Shown here in pieces: positions 11,434-60,433 of a stretch of 64,000 nucleotides of DNA. Made by a program: the position numbers and the translations under genes. The first letter of the stretch is position 1. Each line of letters begins with the position of its first letter. Source of the DNA: Euzebyales bacterium. GTDB lineage: Bacteria > Actinomycetota > Nitriliruptoria > Euzebyales > Egibacteraceae. The stretch is from NCBI GenBank assembly GCA_013695145.1, contig JACDBB010000172.1, forward strand, positions 1-64,000, written 5' to 3'. The notes below the pieces were generated by a model, which saw only the letters and a list, made by a program, of their open reading frames with translations, had not been told where the DNA came from and made no database searches.

Positions 11434-11868
11434 ATGCGCTCGTTGCCGTCCCTGCTTCTCGTTCTCCTCGTCGCGGCCTGCGGTCAGGCCGCCGAGCCGA
11501 CCGCCGACCAGCCGATCGCCGTGGAGCCCACCGCGACCGCTGCCGACCCGGCCCCCACCGGCCAGACCCATCCCGATGTGGTGGACGCCGAGCTGACCGA
11601 CGAGGGGGCGTCCTGGAGCCTGGCGGTCACGTTGTCCTCGCCCTACGACACCGCGGACCGCTACGCCGACGGATGGCGGGTGCTCACACCTGACGGGACC
11701 GTTCTCGGTGAGCACGAGCTCACTCACGACCACGCCGCTGAGCAGCCGTTCACCCGCGTGCAACGCGGTCTGCGGATCCCCGAGGGCGTCGACGAGATCA
11801 CCGTCGAGGGGCGCGATCTCGTCAACGGCTACGGCGGGACGACCATGGTGGTGACCGTCCCCCGCTGA
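11434..11868 (+). CDS. Small lipoprotein of unknown function
   Basis: 144 aa. Signal peptide with lipobox LVAAC near residue 15, a Thr/Ala/Pro-rich linker, then a beta-rich domain of about 90 residues containing several Tyr/Asp pairs and a C-terminal strand ending VVTVPR. No family is recognised. Its TGA stop is the first three bases of repeat copy A. It is divergent from the zinc-ribbon gene. Confidence 0.8.
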   Translation: MRSLPSLLLVLLVAACGQAAEPTADQPIAVEPTATAADPAPTGQTHPDVVDAELTDEGASWSLAVTLSSPYDTADRYADGWRVLTPDGTVLGEHELTHDHAAEQPFTRVQRGLRIPEGVDEITVEGRDLVNGYGGTTMVVTVPR

Positions 11869-11951
11869 CACGTGAACGCGCCCGAGCTTGCGAGGGCGGT
11901 TCTCCCAATCTTGGTGGTGGCGGTCGCGGAGCGACCGTCATGGAATGCTGA
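11866..11951 (+). repeat. Two-hairpin 3'-end element, copy A
   Basis: Begins TGACACGTGAA at the lipoprotein stop. Hairpin 1 spans 11874-11902 (GAAC...GTTC outer pair, GCCC/GGGC inner pair). Hairpin 2 is CGGTCGC / GCGACCG at 11921-11937 with a GGA triloop. The tail CATGGAATGCTGA matches copies E and H. It lies between convergent genes. Confidence 0.8.
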
Positions 11952-14923: not shown

Positions 14924-14957
14924 CGCGCCGCCTCGGGGCGCACGCCATACTGGAGCC

Positions 14958-15033
14958 AGCATCTGAGGGCGGTGCCTCGCACCGCCACCCCGAGATTGTG
15001 AGGATCGCCCTCGCGAGCTCGGGCGCATTCACA
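14958..15033 (-). repeat. Two-hairpin element, copy B (reverse)
   Basis: Hairpin 2 is GGCGGTGC / GCACCGCC (14968-14986). Hairpin 1 uses GAATGCGCCC and GGGCGAT; GTGAAT end at 15027-15032. Here no live gene ends at the 5' side; the opposite-strand gene at 15052 starts 19 bases away and a cupredoxin remnant lies beyond the 3' side. Confidence 0.75.
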
Positions 15034-15051
15034 GCCAGGAGGTGACGGTCG

Positions 15052-18531: not shown

Positions 18532-20052
18532 ATGGGTGAGTTCGTCGCCGCGATCGACCAGGGGACGACCAGCACGCGCTGCATGCTGTTCGATCACGAC
18601 GGCGCCGAGGTATCGCGCCACCAGCTCGAGCACGAGCAGATTCTTCCCCGCGCGGGCTGGGTGGAGCACGACCCGGTGGAGATCTGGGAGCGCACCCGCA
18701 CGGTCGTCAAGCGCGCGCTGTCGGCGGCCAAGGCCGACGCGACGGCGCTGGTCGCCGTCGGGGTCACCAACCAGCGAGAGACCACGGTCGTCTGGGATCC
18801 GACGACCGGTCAGCCGCACCACAACGCGATCGTGTGGCAGGACACCCGCACCGACCGGATCGCCGCGGCGCTCCAGCGGGACGGCCGCGGCGACGTGATC
18901 CGGCACAAGGCCGGCCTGCCGCCCGCCACCTACTTCTCCGGCGGGAAGCTGCAGTGGATCCTCGACGAGGTCGATGGTCTGCGCTCCGCCGCCGAGCGTG
19001 GCGAGGCGGTGTTCGGCACCGCCGACACCTGGGTCATGTGGAACCTGACCGGCGGGGTGGACGGCGGCTCGCACGTCACCGACGTCACCAACGCCGGCCG
19101 CACCATGCTGATGGACCTTCAGACCCTCGACTGGGACGACGAGCTGCTGTCGTTCTTCGGCGTGCCGCGCCAGATGCTCGGCTCCATCCGGCCCTCCAGC
19201 GACCCGCGGCTGTACGGCACCACGAACCCGGCGGGGCCGTTCCGCGGCGAGGTGCCGGTCGCCGGCGCGCTCGGCGACCAGCACGCGGCCACCGTCGGAC
19301 AGGTCTGCTTCGACGTCGGCATGGCGAAGAACACCTACGGGACCGGCAACTTCCTGGTCGCCAACACCGGGACCGAGCTGGTCCGCTCCGAGCACGGCCT
19401 GCTCACCACCCCCTGCTACCAGATGGGTGACGCGGACTGCGTGTACGCGCTGGAGGGCTCGATCGCGGTGACCGGGTCGGCGGTGCAGTGGCTGCGGGAC
19501 CAGTTGGGCCTCATCGGCGAAGCCGCCGAGACCGAGGCGCTGGCCACCTCGGTGGACGACAGCGGCGGCGTGTACTTCGTGCCGGCGTTCTCCGGTCTGT
19601 TCGCGCCGTACTGGCGCTCCGACGCGCGCGGGGCGATCGTCGGGCTGTCGCGGTTCAACACCCGCGCGCACCTGGCCAGGGCGACGCTCGAGTCGATCTG
19701 CTACTCCAGCCGGGACGTCGCCGAGGCGATGACCGCCGACTCCGGCGTGGAGCTGGACGTGCTGCGCGTCGACGGCGGCGCGACCGTCAACGGCGCGCTC
19801 ATGCAGCTGCAGGCGGACATCCTGGGCGTGCCGGTGTCCCGGCCCGTGGTCGCCGAGACCACGGCGCTCGGCGCGGCCTACGCCGCGGGGCTGGCGGTCG
19901 GGTTCTGGTCGGATCTCGACGAGCTGCGCGCCAACTGGCGGGAGGATCGGCGCTGGGAGCCGGAATGGTCGTCCGATCGCCGCGAGTCCGGCTACGCCGA
20001 CTGGAAGCGTGCCGTCGAGCGGACCCTCGACTGGGTCACGGTCGACGCCTGA
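18532..20052 (+). CDS. glpK: Glycerol kinase
   Basis: 506 aa FGGY-family kinase producing sn-glycerol 3-phosphate from glycerol and ATP. N-terminal [15 protein letters not shown] phosphate loop, the [10 protein letters not shown] segment with substrate arginine and glutamate, and a C-terminal [17 protein letters not shown] adenosine motif are present at normal length. AAGAGGA is well spaced before the ATG. No glpF or glpD is adjacent. Its stop is the first TGA of repeat copy C. Confidence 0.95.
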
Positions 20053-20160
20053 CACGTGAATAGCCCTGGGCGCCCAGGGGTCGACACCGTGTCGAGATTC
20101 CTGCGCTATGCGTGGCCGTTCACACAGTGTCGGACCAGCCTGCGACTAGGCGATTCTCAC
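20050..20160 (+). repeat. Two-hairpin element, copy C (long variant)
   Basis: Starts TGACACGTGAAT at the glpK stop and ends GCGATTCTCAC. The hairpin-1 loop is replaced by a module of about 75 bases also found in copy E, containing GTCGACACCGTGTCGAG, ATTCCTGCGCTATGCG and ACACAGTGTCGG. Hairpin 2 is missing or unrecognisable. The remaining bases to 20217 hold no gene. Confidence 0.75.
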
Positions 20161-24064: not shown

Positions 24065-24083
24065 CCCGCCACGCGGCCGCGGT

Positions 24084-24168
24084 CAGCGTCGCATGACGGT
24101 CACTGCGCGACCGTCACAACCGGTATGCGGAGAATCGCCCTCGCAAGCTCGGGCGCATTCACGACTCA
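24084..24168 (-). repeat. Two-hairpin element, copy D (reverse)
   Basis: Hairpin 2 is GACGGTCAC / GCGACCGTC (24095-24115, one G-U pair when read on the minus strand). Hairpin 1 is GAATGCGCCC / GGGCGATTC. The minus-strand 5' end TGAGTCGTGAAT starts with the carbamate kinase stop. Confidence 0.8.
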
Positions 24169-25128
24169 TGGGGCGACGAAGCGGGTGCCGGCGCGTCCGG
24201 CGAGCGCGTCGGCGGCGCAGGCCAGCGAGGAGATGACCGCCACGGCCCCGCGCGCGGCGACGTCCGCGGCCGCGGAGACCTTCGGTCCCATGCTGCCGGC
24301 CGGGAACTCGCCGTCGGCGAGCAGCTTGCGCGCGTCCTCAGGCGACAGCTCGTCGATCGGCCGCTCCTCGGGTGTGCCGTAGCCGAGGCGGACCGCGTCG
24401 ACGTCGGTCAGGACCAGCAGCGCGTCCGCCTCCACGAGCCTGGTCAGCAGCGCCGCCGTGCGGTCCTTGTCGATCACCGCCTCGACTCCCGCCAGCGCGC
24501 GCCCGCTGAGCGCGACCGGCATCCCGCCCCCCCCGGCGCACACCGTGATGACGCCCGCGCCCACCAGCGCCCGGATCGCCACCGCCTCCATGATGTCGAG
24601 GGGCTGCGGCGACGCGACGACCCTGCGCCACAGGCCGCCCTCCACTTTGCGGAACACGGCGCGGCCCACCGTCCACAGCTCGCCTGCCGGCGCCGCGGTG
24701 GCGGTGAGGAACTCCAGCTCCGTCTCGGTGTAGTGCGGACCCACCGGCTTGTCCGGCGCATCGAAGGCGGGGTCGTGCGCATCAACGAGCACCTGGGTGA
24801 CCACCGTGACGACGGGCCGCTCCAGGCCACGAGCGCGCAGCTCGTTGCCGAGCTGCTGCTGGAGGAGGACACCGAGCATCCCCTGGGTCTGCGCGCCCAG
24901 CAGGTCCAGCGGCATGGCCGGCACCTCGTGCGCGGCGGCGCGCTGCTGGATGAGCAGTCGGCCGACCTGCGGCCCGTTGCCGTGGGTGAGGATCAGCTCG
25001 TGGCCAGTCTCGACGAGGTCGGTGAGCTGAGCGCACGCCGACCGCACGGTGTCCCGCTGCTCCTCGGCGGAGCCGCGTGCGCCCTTGCGCAGGATCGCGT
25101 TGCCACCGAGCGCGACGACGACTCTCAT
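24166..25128 (-). CDS. arcC: Carbamate kinase
   Basis: 320 aa amino-acid-kinase fold. VVALGGNAILRKG, THGNGPQVGRLLIQ and AGGGGMPVALSG motifs match ArcC, which transfers phosphate from carbamoyl phosphate to ADP or the reverse. It begins 3 bases after the ROK kinase stop and belongs to the operon eRF1-like / ROK kinase / arcC. No arginine deiminase is visible nearby. Confidence 0.92.
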   Translation of the reverse strand: MRVVVALGGNAILRKGARGSAEEQRDTVRSACAQLTDLVETGHELILTHGNGPQVGRLLIQQRAAAHEVPAMPLDLLGAQTQGMLGVLLQQQLGNELRARGLERPVVTVVTQVLVDAHDPAFDAPDKPVGPHYTETELEFLTATAAPAGELWTVGRAVFRKVEGGLWRRVVASPQPLDIMEAVAIRALVGAGVITVCAGGGGMPVALSGRALAGVEAVIDKDRTAALLTRLVEADALLVLTDVDAVRLGYGTPEERPIDELSPEDARKLLADGEFPAGSMGPKVSAAADVAARGAVAVISSLACAADALAGRAGTRFVAP

Positions 25129-30472: not shown

Positions 30473-31047
30473 GTGACGAGGACTCACCGGCGCAGCCCGT
30501 GGCGCTTCGCCGCTCGCTACGACCGCGCCGTGGCCCCGCCGAACTGGGTCGCTTTGACCTGGCCGACGGCCGCGGCGCCTGCTACTTCGGCGCGTCGCCG
30601 CAGACCGCACTGCTCGAGTCCATGGCCGACCCCGACGAGCTCGCCTCCCTGATCGACCGTGCGGACCTGGCCGCTCGCAAGGTGTGGACCGGCCCGGTCG
30701 CCCGTCCACCATCGGTGGTCGACACCTGCTCACACGAGGCGACCGCAGCCGGCATCACCAGCGAACTGGGCACCATCACGCCCTACGAGACCACCTGGGC
30801 GTGGGCGGACGCGTTCGACATCGACCAGCGCGGCGGGGTGCGCTACGCCAGTCGCTTCGACCCCGAACCTCATGGGCTGTGCGTCGTCGGGCCGGCCGGC
30901 GCGCCCGAGATCGACGGTCCACGATGGCCGCCGCTGGACGAGGAGGTGCCGGCACTCGACTGGGCCGACTGGTTCGAAGACCTCCGCCGGTTGATCGACG
31001 CCCCCGCCCTGGACGACCTCGTGCGTGCCCCAAACCCTGAGTCGTGA
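30473..31047 (+). pseudogene. RES-domain toxin, frameshifted
   Basis: From GTG 30473 one frame reads HRRSPWRFAARYDRAVAPPNW, the RES N-terminus; near 30545 the frame must change to read GRFDLADGRGACYFGASPQTALLE and later GGVRYASRFDPEPHGLCVV, the remaining RES motifs. RES toxins degrade NAD+ and pair with Xre/MbcA antitoxins. No antitoxin gene survives upstream. A sequencing error cannot be excluded. The stop lies inside repeat copy F. Confidence 0.65.
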
Positions 31048-31110
31048 ATCGCGCAGCCTGCGGAGGCGATCCCCGGTTGTGGCCATCGCGCAGCGATGGC
31101 CATGGGATGC
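31038..31110 (+). repeat. Two-hairpin element, copy F
   Basis: Hairpin 2 is GGCCATCGC / GCGATGGCC with GCA triloop (31081-31101). Hairpin 1 is degraded (GAATCGC...GGCGATCC). The RES stop codon is the TGA within CGTGAATCG. Tail CATGGGATGC. Confidence 0.75.
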
Positions 31111-31289
31111 AATACGCCGTATCTGGGATCGGCGGGGGTCTGTGTCGGCACGGGCAGCGCTGCGCCGACACAATCGGGCGGTCGGTGCGGCCGCGGCCGG
31201 TCACCTACGCGAGAACACCGCGTGTGCGCGGTGAACTCGCGTAGGTTCGCTCGTCTGGGCGTGGCGAACGACGCCTCGTGCCGGTCGGG
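31111..31289. other. Non-coding stretch with long hairpin
   Basis: No start-supported reading frame. It contains the 44-base hairpin listed separately at 31203-31246; the rest shows nothing recognisable. Confidence 0.5.
31203..31246. other. Nearly perfect 44-base hairpin
   Basis: Outer 11-bp stem ACCTACGCGAG / CTCGCGTAGGT, symmetric AA/AA internal loop, inner 7-bp stem CACCGCG / CGCGGTG and TGTG tetraloop. It is in DNA without a gene, between repeat copies F and G. It could be an RNA structure or a terminal inverted repeat of a small element. Confidence 0.7.
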
Positions 31290-31396
31290 TTGGATGGTCC
31301 CATGTGTCGACACAGTGTCGCCGCAGGTGGCGCGCCAGCGAGCGCCTGCGCGACCGCCCAGCGGCAGGCATCTCCGAACACAACGCGTTCTGGGAG
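31290..31396 (+). repeat. Dispersed ~110-base repeat, copy 1
   Basis: Shares GATGGTCCC, GTGTCG palindrome, TGGCGCGCC, GCGGCAGGCAT and C-GAAC-CGTTCTG segments with 42677-42787. Both copies can be read as WRASERLRDRPAAGISEHN-like peptide (copy 2 RAGEHVRDCPAAGIAELEH), so it may be a protein remnant. It runs directly into repeat copy G. Confidence 0.6.
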
Positions 31397-31472
31397 GTGA
31401 ATCGCCGGAGCCCGCGGAGGCGATTCTCACAATCCAATCCCGGTGGTGGCGGTCGCGACGTGACCGTCTGAG
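31397..31472 (+). repeat. Two-hairpin element, copy G
   Basis: Hairpin 1 is perfect: GAATCGCC / GGCGATTC with a 12-base loop. Hairpin 2 is reduced to CGGTC / GACCG (31450-31466). A duplicated AATCC lies in the linker. No live gene ends at its 5' side. Confidence 0.75.
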
Positions 31473-31519
31473 ACGCCGACCGGACCCGCCGAGGCTGCGC
31501 CGGGCGGACCTCGCGGGAC

Positions 31520-32380: not shown

Positions 32381-32812
32381 ATGAGATCCGTGACGGACCG
32401 CCTGGACGCCCTCAATCCGCACCTGACGGCGACGGCTCTCGCCCTGATGCGAGCCGCGGCGGGACTCGCGATGCTGCTGCTGCCGGCGGTGTCGTGGCGC
32501 GTCCTCGGTGGGCGCAGCCCTGGCGCCGAGACGCGCACCGCTGTCCGCATCGCCGGCGGCCGCGACCTCGCGCTTGGCATCGGCGCGCTGACCGCGGCCG
32601 ACGATGTCGAGCTGGCGCGCTGGGTGCGAGCAGGTGCGCTGGCCGACGCCGGCGACGGCGTCGCCCAGCTGTCCGCCCACGATTCACGGGGACTCGCGCG
32701 GCTGCGCAGCCTGTGCATCTCCGGCGGAGCCGCGGTCGTGGGCTTCGCGGCCGCTCGCCGCCTCTCAGCATTCATGGCCATCGCTACGCGATGGCCACAA
32801 CCGGGATTGTGA
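32381..32812 (+). CDS. DUF4267-like small membrane protein
   Basis: 143 aa with three to four membrane helices and GGRDLALGIGALTA, the motif of DUF4267-type proteins. The last 15 residues (AFMAIATRWPQPGL) and the stop are encoded by repeat copy E, so the native end has been replaced by the element. Leaderless start. Confidence 0.7.
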   Translation: MRSVTDRLDALNPHLTATALALMRAAAGLAMLLLPAVSWRVLGGRSPGAETRTAVRIAGGRDLALGIGALTAADDVELARWVRAGALADAGDGVAQLSAHDSRGLARLRSLCISGGAAVVGFAAARRLSAFMAIATRWPQPGL

Positions 32813-32920
32813 GAATCGCCCTCGCAGGCTGGTCCGGCACTGTGTCGGAACAGCCGCGCATAGCGCAGGAATCTCGACAGGGTGTCGAGTTCCCGGGGGC
32901 TCGGGCGCATTCACGTGTCA
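32765..32920 (-). repeat. Two-hairpin element, copy E (long variant, reverse)
   Basis: Hairpin 2 is GGCCATCGC / GCGATGGCC (32776-32796). Hairpin-1 arms GAATGCGCCC and GGGCGATTC are separated by a module shared with copy C, containing ACTCGACA...TGTCGAG and TCCGACACAGTGCCGGA palindromes. The PIG-L stop is the TGA in ACACGTGAAT. Confidence 0.8.
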
Positions 32921-33750
32921 GTTGATGGCCCCGCTGGCTCGCCGTCGCCGGTCCAGGCCAGCAGACCCGCGCGGGTGACCAGCTCTGCGTGCGTCGCCGG
33001 GTCGAGCCGGACGAAGCCCTCGGCCCAACCGACACCACCCAGGCCGCACGATGCGCTGCGGTAGGCGGCGAGCCCCGCGGCCGCTCGGACGTAGTCCACG
33101 GAGGCCAGGGCCGTGGCGTAGCGCCGCAGGGCCCGCTCCTTGTCCGCCCAGACCTCGCCGACGTCGACGAGCACGTCCACCGGCGCCGGCGACCACACCT
33201 CGTAGCCCAGCACCTCGGCGCGCAGTCCGGCCCTGACGAGCGCGGCGTTCGCGGCGCGGTGATCACGGTGCGGGTCGAGCACCGTCGGGGCGTAGACCAC
33301 GCTCGCGTGGGCGCCCTGCTCGGCCAGCGCGCCGGCCAGCTCGTCGACCGCCTCTCCCAGCCGGCCATCGGGCAGCCGGCAGAACACGGGCGCCATGGTC
33401 ACGCCCAGATCGACGCAGGCCGCGCGACACTCGGCCTCCCTGGCCGCTGCCAGGCGGCCGCTGCCGTGCCGGATCCGCCCACCCGTGGTCGCCTCACCGC
33501 TGGTTGCCACCACCACGACGACCTCGTCTCCCCTGGCGGCATGCCTGGCGATGGTGCCCCCGGCGCCGATCGTCTCGTCGTCGGGGTGCGGCGCCAGCAC
33601 CAGCACAGGTCCCTCGGGTGGTCCGGGCAGCAGCGTCGGGCCGTCCGCGGAGCGAGTGGCCAGCGCCAGCGCGACCTCCCGTACCGCGTGAGGCACGGCG
33701 TCAGCCGACGCGCGGGCGGCGCGGTGGGCAAGGCGGCGGATCCTCCACAC
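32911..33750 (-). CDS. PIG-L family deacetylase
   Basis: 279 aa LmbE/PIG-L zinc deacetylase. LAPHPDDETIGAGGT supplies the metal ligands and the catalytic Asp; the later His lies in PHRDHRAANA. Members remove acetyl groups from GlcNAc-type substrates, including mycothiol and its conjugates, but the exact substrate is open. The GTG at 33750 follows the FadD stop by 8 bases, suggesting coupling. The C-terminal residues STDT run into repeat copy E. Confidence 0.85.
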   Translation of the reverse strand: MWRIRRLAHRAARASADAVPHAVREVALALATRSADGPTLLPGPPEGPVLVLAPHPDDETIGAGGTIARHAARGDEVVVVVATSGEATTGGRIRHGSGRLAAAREAECRAACVDLGVTMAPVFCRLPDGRLGEAVDELAGALAEQGAHASVVYAPTVLDPHRDHRAANAALVRAGLRAEVLGYEVWSPAPVDVLVDVGEVWADKERALRRYATALASVDYVRAAAGLAAYRSASCGLGGVGWAEGFVRLDPATHAELVTRAGLLAWTGDGEPAGPSTDT

Positions 33751-58441: not shown

Positions 58442-59206
58442 ATGACCGACCTCGCAGGATCCATCGTGCTCGTCACCGGCGCATCGAGCGGCATCGGCGC
58501 GGCCACCGCCCGCGCGTTCGCGGCCGAGGGCGCCCGGCTGGTGCTGGCGGCCCGTCGCCGCGAGCGACTTGAGGAGCTCGCCGGACAGCTCGACGGCGAC
58601 ACGCTCCCGCTGGAGCTCGACGTGCGCGACCGAGCCGCGGTCGATCAGGCGCTGTCGGGCCTGCCGCCGGAGTGGGCGGCGATCGACGTGCTGGTCAACA
58701 ACGCCGGGCTGGCGGCGGGGATGGAGCCGCTCCAGGAGGGCGAGGTCGACCACTGGGCACGCATGATCGACACCAACGTCGCCGGCCTGCTGTGGGTCAC
58801 CCGCGCGGTCGTGCCAGGGATGATCGCGCGCGGCGGCGGCCACGTCATCAACATCGGGTCCGTCGCCGGGCACGAGACCTACCCCAAAGGGGCGGTCTAC
58901 TGCGCCACGAAGGCCGCGGTCGACCGCATCACCAAGGGTCTGCGCATGGACATGCTCGGCACCCGCGTCAAGGTGTCAACGGTGGATCCCGGCATGGTCG
59001 AGACCGAGTTCTCCGTCGTGCGCTTCGACGGCGACGCCGACCGGGCCTCCAAAGTCTACGAGGGCCTGGACCCGCTGACCGGCGACGACATCGCCGACGC
59101 GGTGGTCTGGGTCGCGAGCCGCCCCGCGAACGTGCAGGTCGCCGAGGTGGTCATCCTGGCGTCCGCGCAGGTGTCGGCGACGGTCGCCCATCGCGAGCCG
59201 ACCTGA
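58442..59206 (+). CDS. Short-chain dehydrogenase/reductase
   Basis: 254 aa. Nucleotide motif VLVTGASSGIGAATARAF, NNAGLAAG, catalytic Ser in NIGSVAGHE and YCATK (Tyr/Lys). Closest in pattern to YdfG-type 3-hydroxy-acid dehydrogenases. GAGGAGA precedes the ATG. Its last 56 bases overlap the convergent exporter gene. Confidence 0.92.
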   Translation: MTDLAGSIVLVTGASSGIGAATARAFAAEGARLVLAARRRERLEELAGQLDGDTLPLELDVRDRAAVDQALSGLPPEWAAIDVLVNNAGLAAGMEPLQEGEVDHWARMIDTNVAGLLWVTRAVVPGMIARGGGHVINIGSVAGHETYPKGAVYCATKAAVDRITKGLRMDMLGTRVKVSTVDPGMVETEFSVVRFDGDADRASKVYEGLDPLTGDDIADAVVWVASRPANVQVAEVVILASAQVSATVAHREPT

Positions 59207-60092
59207 GCCCGCGGGCTCTGCGGTCCGCCCGGCGTCCCAGCTCGATCGCCGCTGCCACCAGCAGCATCCCGACGACGTGCAGCGGCCCGTATGGTTCCCC
59301 GAAGGCCAGAGCGGCCCAGATGCTCGCCAGCAGGGGCACGGCCGCCAGCGCGAGCGACGACAGCGCGGCGCTGACCCGCGGGTGCGCCCAGTTGAGGAGC
59401 AGGTGGCCGTTACCGGGAATCAGCGCGAGCCCGACGATCATCGCCCCGTGCACGCCGGTGGCGGCGAACGACTCGCCGCGCAGCAGCGCGTACGGCAGCA
59501 CCACGGCCAGCGCGACCAGCATGAAGGTGGCCGTCAGGGTCAGGGTGGGGGCGCCGGTGTCCCGGGCGCGCTTCGCGCACAGGAAGTAGGCGGTGAACGC
59601 GATCAGGTTCGCGATGGCGAACAGATCGCCCGTGAGGCTGCGGCTGGGATCGTCCAGGTTGGCGCCCACCACGATGGCCACGCCGCCGACCGCGAGGACC
59701 GCGCAGCCGAGCACAGCCCTGGGAACCCGCTCCCCGAGCGTGCGGCGGCTGACCATGGCGACCAGCAGCGGCTGCAGGGCACCGAGGAGCGTGACGATCG
59801 CGATCGAGGTCTGCTTGGTCGCCAGCACGAACAGCAGCTGGTGGACGCCGAACGCCACGCCCGCGGCCACCGGCATCGTCCAGCTCCTCGGCCACGGGGA
59901 CCGCAGCAGCAGCGCGGTCACGACGAGGGCGCCGCCGCCGATGCCCAACCGCCACGCCGACAGGGCGCCGGCTTCGAGCGGGAGGGCCTTGACGATGACG
60001 AAGCCCGCTGAGAACCCCGTCGTGGCCAGCACCACGGCGGCGAGGCCGGAGCCCGGATGGTCGTCGACGCGACGCCAGCTCGGCCGATTCAC
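59151..60092 (-). CDS. EamA/DMT-family transporter
   Basis: 313 aa, ten membrane helices in two EamA repeats. The GTG at 60092 is the last start before the first helix; its context CACGTGAATCGG resembles the 5' end of the repeat element. An open frame further upstream is repeat copy H sequence. Exports or imports small metabolites; specificity unknown. Confidence 0.85.
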   Translation of the reverse strand: MNRPSWRRVDDHPGSGLAAVVLATTGFSAGFVIVKALPLEAGALSAWRLGIGGGALVVTALLLRSPWPRSWTMPVAAGVAFGVHQLLFVLATKQTSIAIVTLLGALQPLLVAMVSRRTLGERVPRAVLGCAVLAVGGVAIVVGANLDDPSRSLTGDLFAIANLIAFTAYFLCAKRARDTGAPTLTLTATFMLVALAVVLPYALLRGESFAATGVHGAMIVGLALIPGNGHLLLNWAHPRVSAALSSLALAAVPLLASIWAALAFGEPYGPLHVVGMLLVAAAIELGRRADRRARGLRSARDGRPSPTPARTPG

Positions 60093-60112
60093 GTGATCCG
60101 GCGATGCACGGG

Positions 60113-60196
60113 TCAGCTTCCATGGCGGTCGCTGCGCGACCGCCACCACCGGGATTGTGAGAATCGCCTCCGCAGGCTCCGGCGATTCACGGGTCA
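60113..60196 (-). repeat. Two-hairpin element, copy H (best preserved, reverse)
   Basis: Hairpin 2 GGCGGTCGC / GCGACCGCC (60124-60144); hairpin 1 GAATCGCC / GGCGATTC (60161-60188), both perfect. The minus-strand 5' end TGACCCGTGAAT starts with the mycoredoxin stop; the tail CATGGAAGCTGA follows hairpin 2. Confidence 0.85.
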
Positions 60197-60433
60197 GGCG
60201 GCCGACGCGGCGGCCAGCACCTCGTCGGCGCTCGGGTTCAGCAGGAATCGCCCTCCGACCTGCACGGTCGGCACGATCTCGTCGCCCCCCGACGCGGCCC
60301 GGACGACGTCGGCCTGCGACCGGTCGGCCCAGATGTCGACGCTGGCGTAGTCCACGCCGCGCCGCTCGAGCTCACCCTTCAGCACTTCGCAGTAACCGCA
60401 CATCGGGCGCCAGTAGATCGTGATCTCGGACAC
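60194..60433 (-). CDS. Mycoredoxin-like glutaredoxin
   Basis: 79 aa thioredoxin fold with CGYC redox motif (WRPMCGYCEVLK), cis-Pro in IVPTVQVGG and a GGRFLLNPS helix region. CGYC glutaredoxins of this size are mycothiol-dependent mycoredoxins in actinobacteria. The gap to gltB (60434-60545) holds nothing clear. Confidence 0.88.
   Translation of the reverse strand: MSEITIYWRPMCGYCEVLKGELERRGVDYASVDIWADRSQADVVRAASGGDEIVPTVQVGGRFLLNPSADEVLAAASAA

Follow-up and report, generated by a model that had tools for sequence, protein, structure and literature searches.

A repeat of about 86 nt, in which two unlike hairpins stand between TCAG tetranucleotides, is dispersed through this actinobacterial genome, and we interpret it as probably a non-autonomous mobile DNA element, similar to the palindrome-associated transposable elements (PATEs) and working in the manner of an IS200/IS605-type pair of ends without a gene. 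The evidence for mobility comprises its dispersal, its anatomy, its TCAG flanks, one empty site, lineage-specific amplification and arrays whose units share a TCAG. The repeat is represented in the window (the whole stretch of 64,000 nt that was analysed, contig 91 of a MAG of 3.33 Mb and 235 contigs, here G000) by eight copies, A to H. The original prediction was that concerted changes in the hairpin arms show pairing, not sequence, to be kept, implying function as RNA or as folded single-stranded DNA. In our reading, the hairpins most likely fold to help the repeat spread, not to perform a cellular function. The repeat family is apparently undescribed and occurs in a little-studied actinobacterial family; its kind, a transposase-less palindromic mobile repeat, is already known.

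The unit reads TCAG-(hairpin 2)-(hairpin 1)-NNN-TCAG, with the consensus TCAG-CATCTCATG-(hairpin 2)-CCACAACC-GGATTGTGA-(hairpin 1)-CAC-NNN-TCAG, and unit sizes in the family run from 86 to about 190 nt. TCAG stands at both edges, and beyond it the flanking sequence is unrelated between copies; tandem units have one TCAG in common. A palindrome lies near each end of the element, a feature by which PATEs and other elements derived from IS200/IS605 are recognised. There are no terminal inverted repeats (the ends agree at 4/20 terminal bases), so the element is not a classical MITE. All eight window copies were recovered by BLAST and alignment. The hairpin 2 arms originally quoted for A, B, E, F and H proved correct, and those for D had been given from the opposite strand: in register they are GACGGTCAC/GCGACCGTC, and the supposed wobble becomes an A.C mismatch, which reads as G.T from the complementary strand. 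The features of copy H and the other copies are as follows.

60113-60198, plus strand: copy H, a complete short-form element from TCAG to TCAG (right TCAG ends at 60197); covariance model, 105.7 bits, and BLAST
60113-60116, plus strand: left TCAG of copy H, the presumed target site; sequence
60124-60144, plus strand: hairpin 2 of copy H, GGCGGTCGC-TGC-GCGACCGCC, arms at 60124-60132 and 60136-60144 around a TGC loop; sequence and fold
60161-60188, plus strand: hairpin 1 of copy H, GAATCGCC-12 nt-GGCGATTC; sequence and alignment
60194-60197, plus strand: right TCAG of copy H, in which TCA provides the TGA stop of gene 60194-60433 on the minus strand
60097-60116, plus strand: TCCGGCGATGCACGGGTCAG, what is left of the right end of a previous tandem unit; 95% match to 60178-60197
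11865-11951, minus strand: copy A, whose right TCAG coincides with the stop of the plus-strand gene 11434-11868; BLAST and covariance model
14956-15039, plus strand: copy B, with the third arm type, GGCGGTGC/GCACCGCC; BLAST and covariance model
20046-20160, minus strand: copy C, a long-form copy whose left part has diverged and whose right TCAG falls on the stop codon of gene 18532-20052; BLAST
24083-24169, plus strand: copy D, ending on the right at the stop codon of the minus-strand gene 24166-25128; BLAST and covariance model
31037-31113, minus strand: copy E, arms GGCCATCGC/GCGATGGCC; BLAST and covariance model
31390-31479, minus strand: copy G; BLAST and covariance model
32765-32921, plus strand: copy F, long form of 157 nt with a multi-hairpin module within hairpin 1; alignment and fold (z -4.3 against shuffles)

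The hairpin 2 arms of the short form fall into essentially three types, CGGTCGC/GCGACCG, CCATCGC/GCGATGG and GCGGTGC/GCACCGC, and a fourth, GGGGGC/GCCCCC, marks the long form, to which window copies C and F belong. The long form carries a module inside hairpin 1, in which two CGACACNGTGTCG palindromes surround GCGCATAGCGCAGGAATC. Two such palindromes about 27 nt apart also constitute a second dispersed repeat, which occurs alone as well as within the long-form hairpin 1 (window 20046-20160 and 32765-32921; L150:5374-5530, L141:2638-2690 and L078:3394-3446). As related modules are found alone elsewhere, the long form looks composite. The window further holds long direct repeats, 94-97% identical and unrelated to the element, at 46053-46233/48628-48808 and 48485-48592/54560-54667.

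A covariance model built from 24 copies, with 150 candidates scored, finds at least 149 copies in the source genome (about 138-150 across counts). Among 21 genomes of the family, the repeat is also present in G002 (113-119 copies), G010 (76-93) and G003 (22-28), and these four hosts represent four different genera. G019, from the same genus as the 76-copy G010, has 1 copy, and the remaining 16 genomes have 0. The consensus of the repeat differs genome by genome, and many long-form copies at unrelated locations match a single consensus with 95-99% identity. None of the plasmids, phages and viral contigs searched carries the element.

The left tetramer is TCAG in 83/149 genomic copies. Of five sites tried in a search for empty sites, one was clean: a single TCAG at L268 of G019 corresponds to TCAG-element-TCAG at L190 of G010, in a comparison that is cross-species with diverged flanks. 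Tandem arrays of unlike units in the source genome (L080, L082, L091 and L106, for example) have the same trinucleotide before TCAG in 17/29 cases against 11 expected, and in single copies the 3 nt preceding the left and right TCAG match slightly more often than expected, 43 times against 33.5. Neither the sharing of trinucleotides nor this excess of matches is predicted by a pure 4-nt TCAG target.

The right edge is also the TGA stop codon of a converging gene in 37/133 copies (27.8%), a count based on 582 kb around the copies and on a home-made codon-usage gene caller that is imperfect (it missed the permease-like gene beside copy H). This coincidence is among the observations that favour a selected RNA element, such as 3'-UTR hairpins, a terminator or a small RNA serving the neighbouring genes. 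The commonest mismatch in the arms, A.C at one pair in 56 copies, would likewise be G.U on the strand that follows the stop codon, and the long form folds better than shuffled sequence. However, the stop coincidence is what any non-disruptive TCAG would give (26.8%; p = 0.77), and adjoining genes are arranged in mixed orientation (54/29/22/19 over the four arrangements). The longest T-run is 1-3 in 132/134 copies and no terminator was called, so the repeats are not intrinsic terminators. The folding of short-form copies exceeds that of shuffled sequence only by a modest margin (z -1.0 to -2.5), both strands of the element fold equally well, and Rfam 15 gives no match at the gathering threshold in the whole window and none for copy F at E up to 10. 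The proposal of an RNA function thus finds no specific support, and we regard a selected RNA element as quite improbable.

Targeting of stop codons as a special property of the element was rejected, as the rate equals the TCAG null. Called genes contain only 9% of the copies, compared with 81% of all TCAG sites. With the stop coincidence at the TCAG expectation and few copies in genes, a target preference together with purifying selection suffices to account for the stop codons; under the mobile-element model, CTGA/TCAG stops would be among the few TCAG sites harmlessly occupied. Beside copy H, a possible ATG start (60121-60123) of the permease-like gene 59151-60149 (minus strand) falls within the element, and insertion of copy H may have altered the start region of that gene.

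We then asked how far the hairpins covary. From three genera (G000, G002 and G010), 169 distinct short copies were aligned with MAFFT without structure, and covariation was scored by a G-statistic with APC correction against nulls that replay parsimony substitutions on the tree, a test of our own that follows the R-scape approach. The helix sum for hairpin 2 lies above all nulls (0/200 reach it), whereas 29/200 reach the sum for hairpin 1, which has no support. No single pair is individually significant in either stem among the 169 copies. The best true pairs, columns 16-30 and 17-29 of hairpin 2, where G-C/C-G and G-C/A-T exchanges occur, have E values of 0.56 and 0.71, which become 0.68 and 0.93 when the hairpin is left out of tree building, and the non-paired columns 17 and 30 score above both. 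Single pairs fall short because the two adjacent pairs switch jointly between arm types. Hairpin 2 therefore has helix-level support that is carried by two linked pairs. The significant covarying pairs that the original prediction looked for in both stems did not emerge in this tree-aware test, which left the helix sum of hairpin 2 alone; the contrast of GAAC/GTTC in copy A with GAAT/ATTC elsewhere in hairpin 1 is real, but covariation of that stem is not borne out. In an alignment fitted to the structure, pairing holds in 94% of cells compared with 21-57% for slid-partner controls, and a pair-count tool run on the structure-fitted alignment agrees for hairpin 2 and sees few both-sided changes in hairpin 1.

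Within the arm types the picture is different. In the two main types, one-sided changes other than wobbles number 23 and 67, and the A.C state at one pair accounts for 51 of the latter; there are also 10 wobbles and 6 compensated changes, all 6 at pair 14-32. The view that pairing is kept holds between arm types, where all four arm sets are palindromic, and fails copy by copy, with about 90 one-sided changes to 6 compensated. From one arm type to another the palindrome persists, and single copies decay; paired changes do exist, in small number, and the observation is statistically thin. Replicating masters that pass through a folded stage, together with dead copies in decay, would be expected to give this pattern of one-sided excess within types and palindromic arm types.

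The concerted arm changes could also be mutational, generated without selection by gene conversion or by template switching at quasi-palindromes, a process that yields multi-base concerted arm changes of this kind (PMC8794818). Several observations fit: the two adjacent pairs switch as a block, columns that do not pair show associations as strong as those of the pairs, a tree made with the hairpin left out bears about 27 changes in the arm columns, the arms of one copy are mixed, and another copy has its loop inverted, GCA for TGC. Taken alone, however, such mutation leaves unexplained both the four unrelated, near-perfect palindromic arm sets in abundant copies and the dispersal itself. We give it a sizeable minority chance as an account of the arm changes only, in which role it is compatible with a mobile element, whose concerted arm changes may come from template switching or from gene conversion. 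As such changes arise as linked blocks in replicating masters, we caution that among repeat copies they are weak evidence of RNA function.

No Y1 transposase (PF01797) was found in the four host genomes, in a search that did detect its positive controls, and the one PF01797 match among the 21 family genomes is in G018, which is without the repeat. Nor is there an autonomous copy, with a coding core between left and right ends, within about 2 kb of each copy. An IS110 transposase was rejected as the mover, being absent from G000 and G010, and a search for IS91-type Y2 enzymes gave no match but was uninformative, as its control gave none either. Either the mover has been lost, or it is too diverged to be detected, or it is something of another kind. 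Since no Y1 gene was found in the four hosts, we assert a likeness of working and claim membership in neither IS200/IS605 nor REP/RAYT. Spread by a non-Y1/HUH enzyme that in this actinobacterial family recognises hairpins folded from single strands and mobilises elements bounded by TCAG is unlikely, though it deserves some weight; if true, it would represent a hairpin-based transposition system of new machinery.

A REP/BIME-type repeat spread by RAYT (TnpA-REP) would share several of these features, namely short intergenic palindromes, more than 100 copies and lineage-specific families, and REPs themselves resemble IS200/IS605 ends (PMC6006769). But the Y1_Tnp gene that it calls for is absent from all four host genomes, inspection of the aligned copies shows the hairpin feet to lack a GTAG/GGAG (or CGTC) tag, and the element has two unlike hairpins in fixed order with TCAG at the outer edges, not head-to-head single palindromes. 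We consider this reading distinctly unlikely.

A search for reverse transcriptases led to a group II intron (RF02005; TIGR04416 maturase) that is 88% identical between two genera, on contig 122 of G000 and contig 93 of G010 (at L280:645-1096 and L278:2598-3110, respectively). In both genera, and in the same orientation, the intron starts directly after the hairpin 2 end of a copy (...CCATGRGATGCTG|GAGCGCCGG..., with a predicted splice point). RVT_1 genes are present in the three genomes richest in the repeat, and one could imagine that the intron's reverse transcriptase spreads it. Against this, only the introns look mobile, and insertion next to stem-loops is a known behaviour of group II introns (PMC4424553); the reverse transcriptase locus of G002 has no adjoining repeat, and G003 has the repeat yet no RVT_1 match. 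Such spread is very improbable. A natural reading is that hairpin 2 DNA is the target of the intron, as group IIC introns insert at terminator or attC motifs (PMC4424553), although the intron is known here only as group II. Another mobile element thus appears to use hairpin 2.

Collectively, our data are consistent with a transposase-less mobile element whose folded stage is most likely single-stranded DNA during transposition, which explains palindromic masters and decaying copies alike. Of the two functions first proposed, folded single-stranded DNA is the better half, by the anatomy and by the intron at hairpin 2 in two genera. In this model, an enzyme supplied in trans would have recognised both hairpins in their single-stranded, folded state and cleaved the DNA at TCAG, and the element would have inserted in one orientation beside a TCAG, with TCAG left at its own right end. 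Changes in the hairpin 2 arms would have arisen in master copies, where any folding sequence may serve, and inserted copies would then decay without compensation. With intact, recent copies at hand, what moves transposase-less palindromic repeats becomes testable in a new lineage.

Several known systems invite comparison. As at the targets of group IIC introns (PMC4424553), a group II intron lies directly beside a stem-loop, in two genera; unlike those targets, the stem-loop is part of a dispersed repeat and not a terminator or attC site, and the intron is known only as group II. With REP/BIME and GTAG/CGTC repeats (PMC3733652) the element shares intergenic palindromes, more than 100 copies and frequent grouping, and the CGTC class is also without a dedicated transposase; it differs in having no GTAG/CGTC tag, two different hairpins in order and units of 86 to about 190 nt. 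It resembles the left and right ends (LE/RE) of IS200/IS605 (PMC6006769) in having a hairpin near each end, tetranucleotides at the left border and right end, and a probably oriented insertion, and departs from them in that no transposase gene was found and the left and right tetranucleotides are identical (TCAG). From the PATEs, defined in Haloquadratum walsbyi (PMC3119063), it differs in its bacterial host, 72% G+C and TCAG edges, and in that Haloquadratum has related IS605-type transposons while no Y1 gene was found in the hosts here. Like the PATEs, it is short and noncoding, has near-terminal palindromes without terminal inverted repeats, ends in a conserved oligonucleotide, is present in many copies and carries a second small repeat inside its palindromes.
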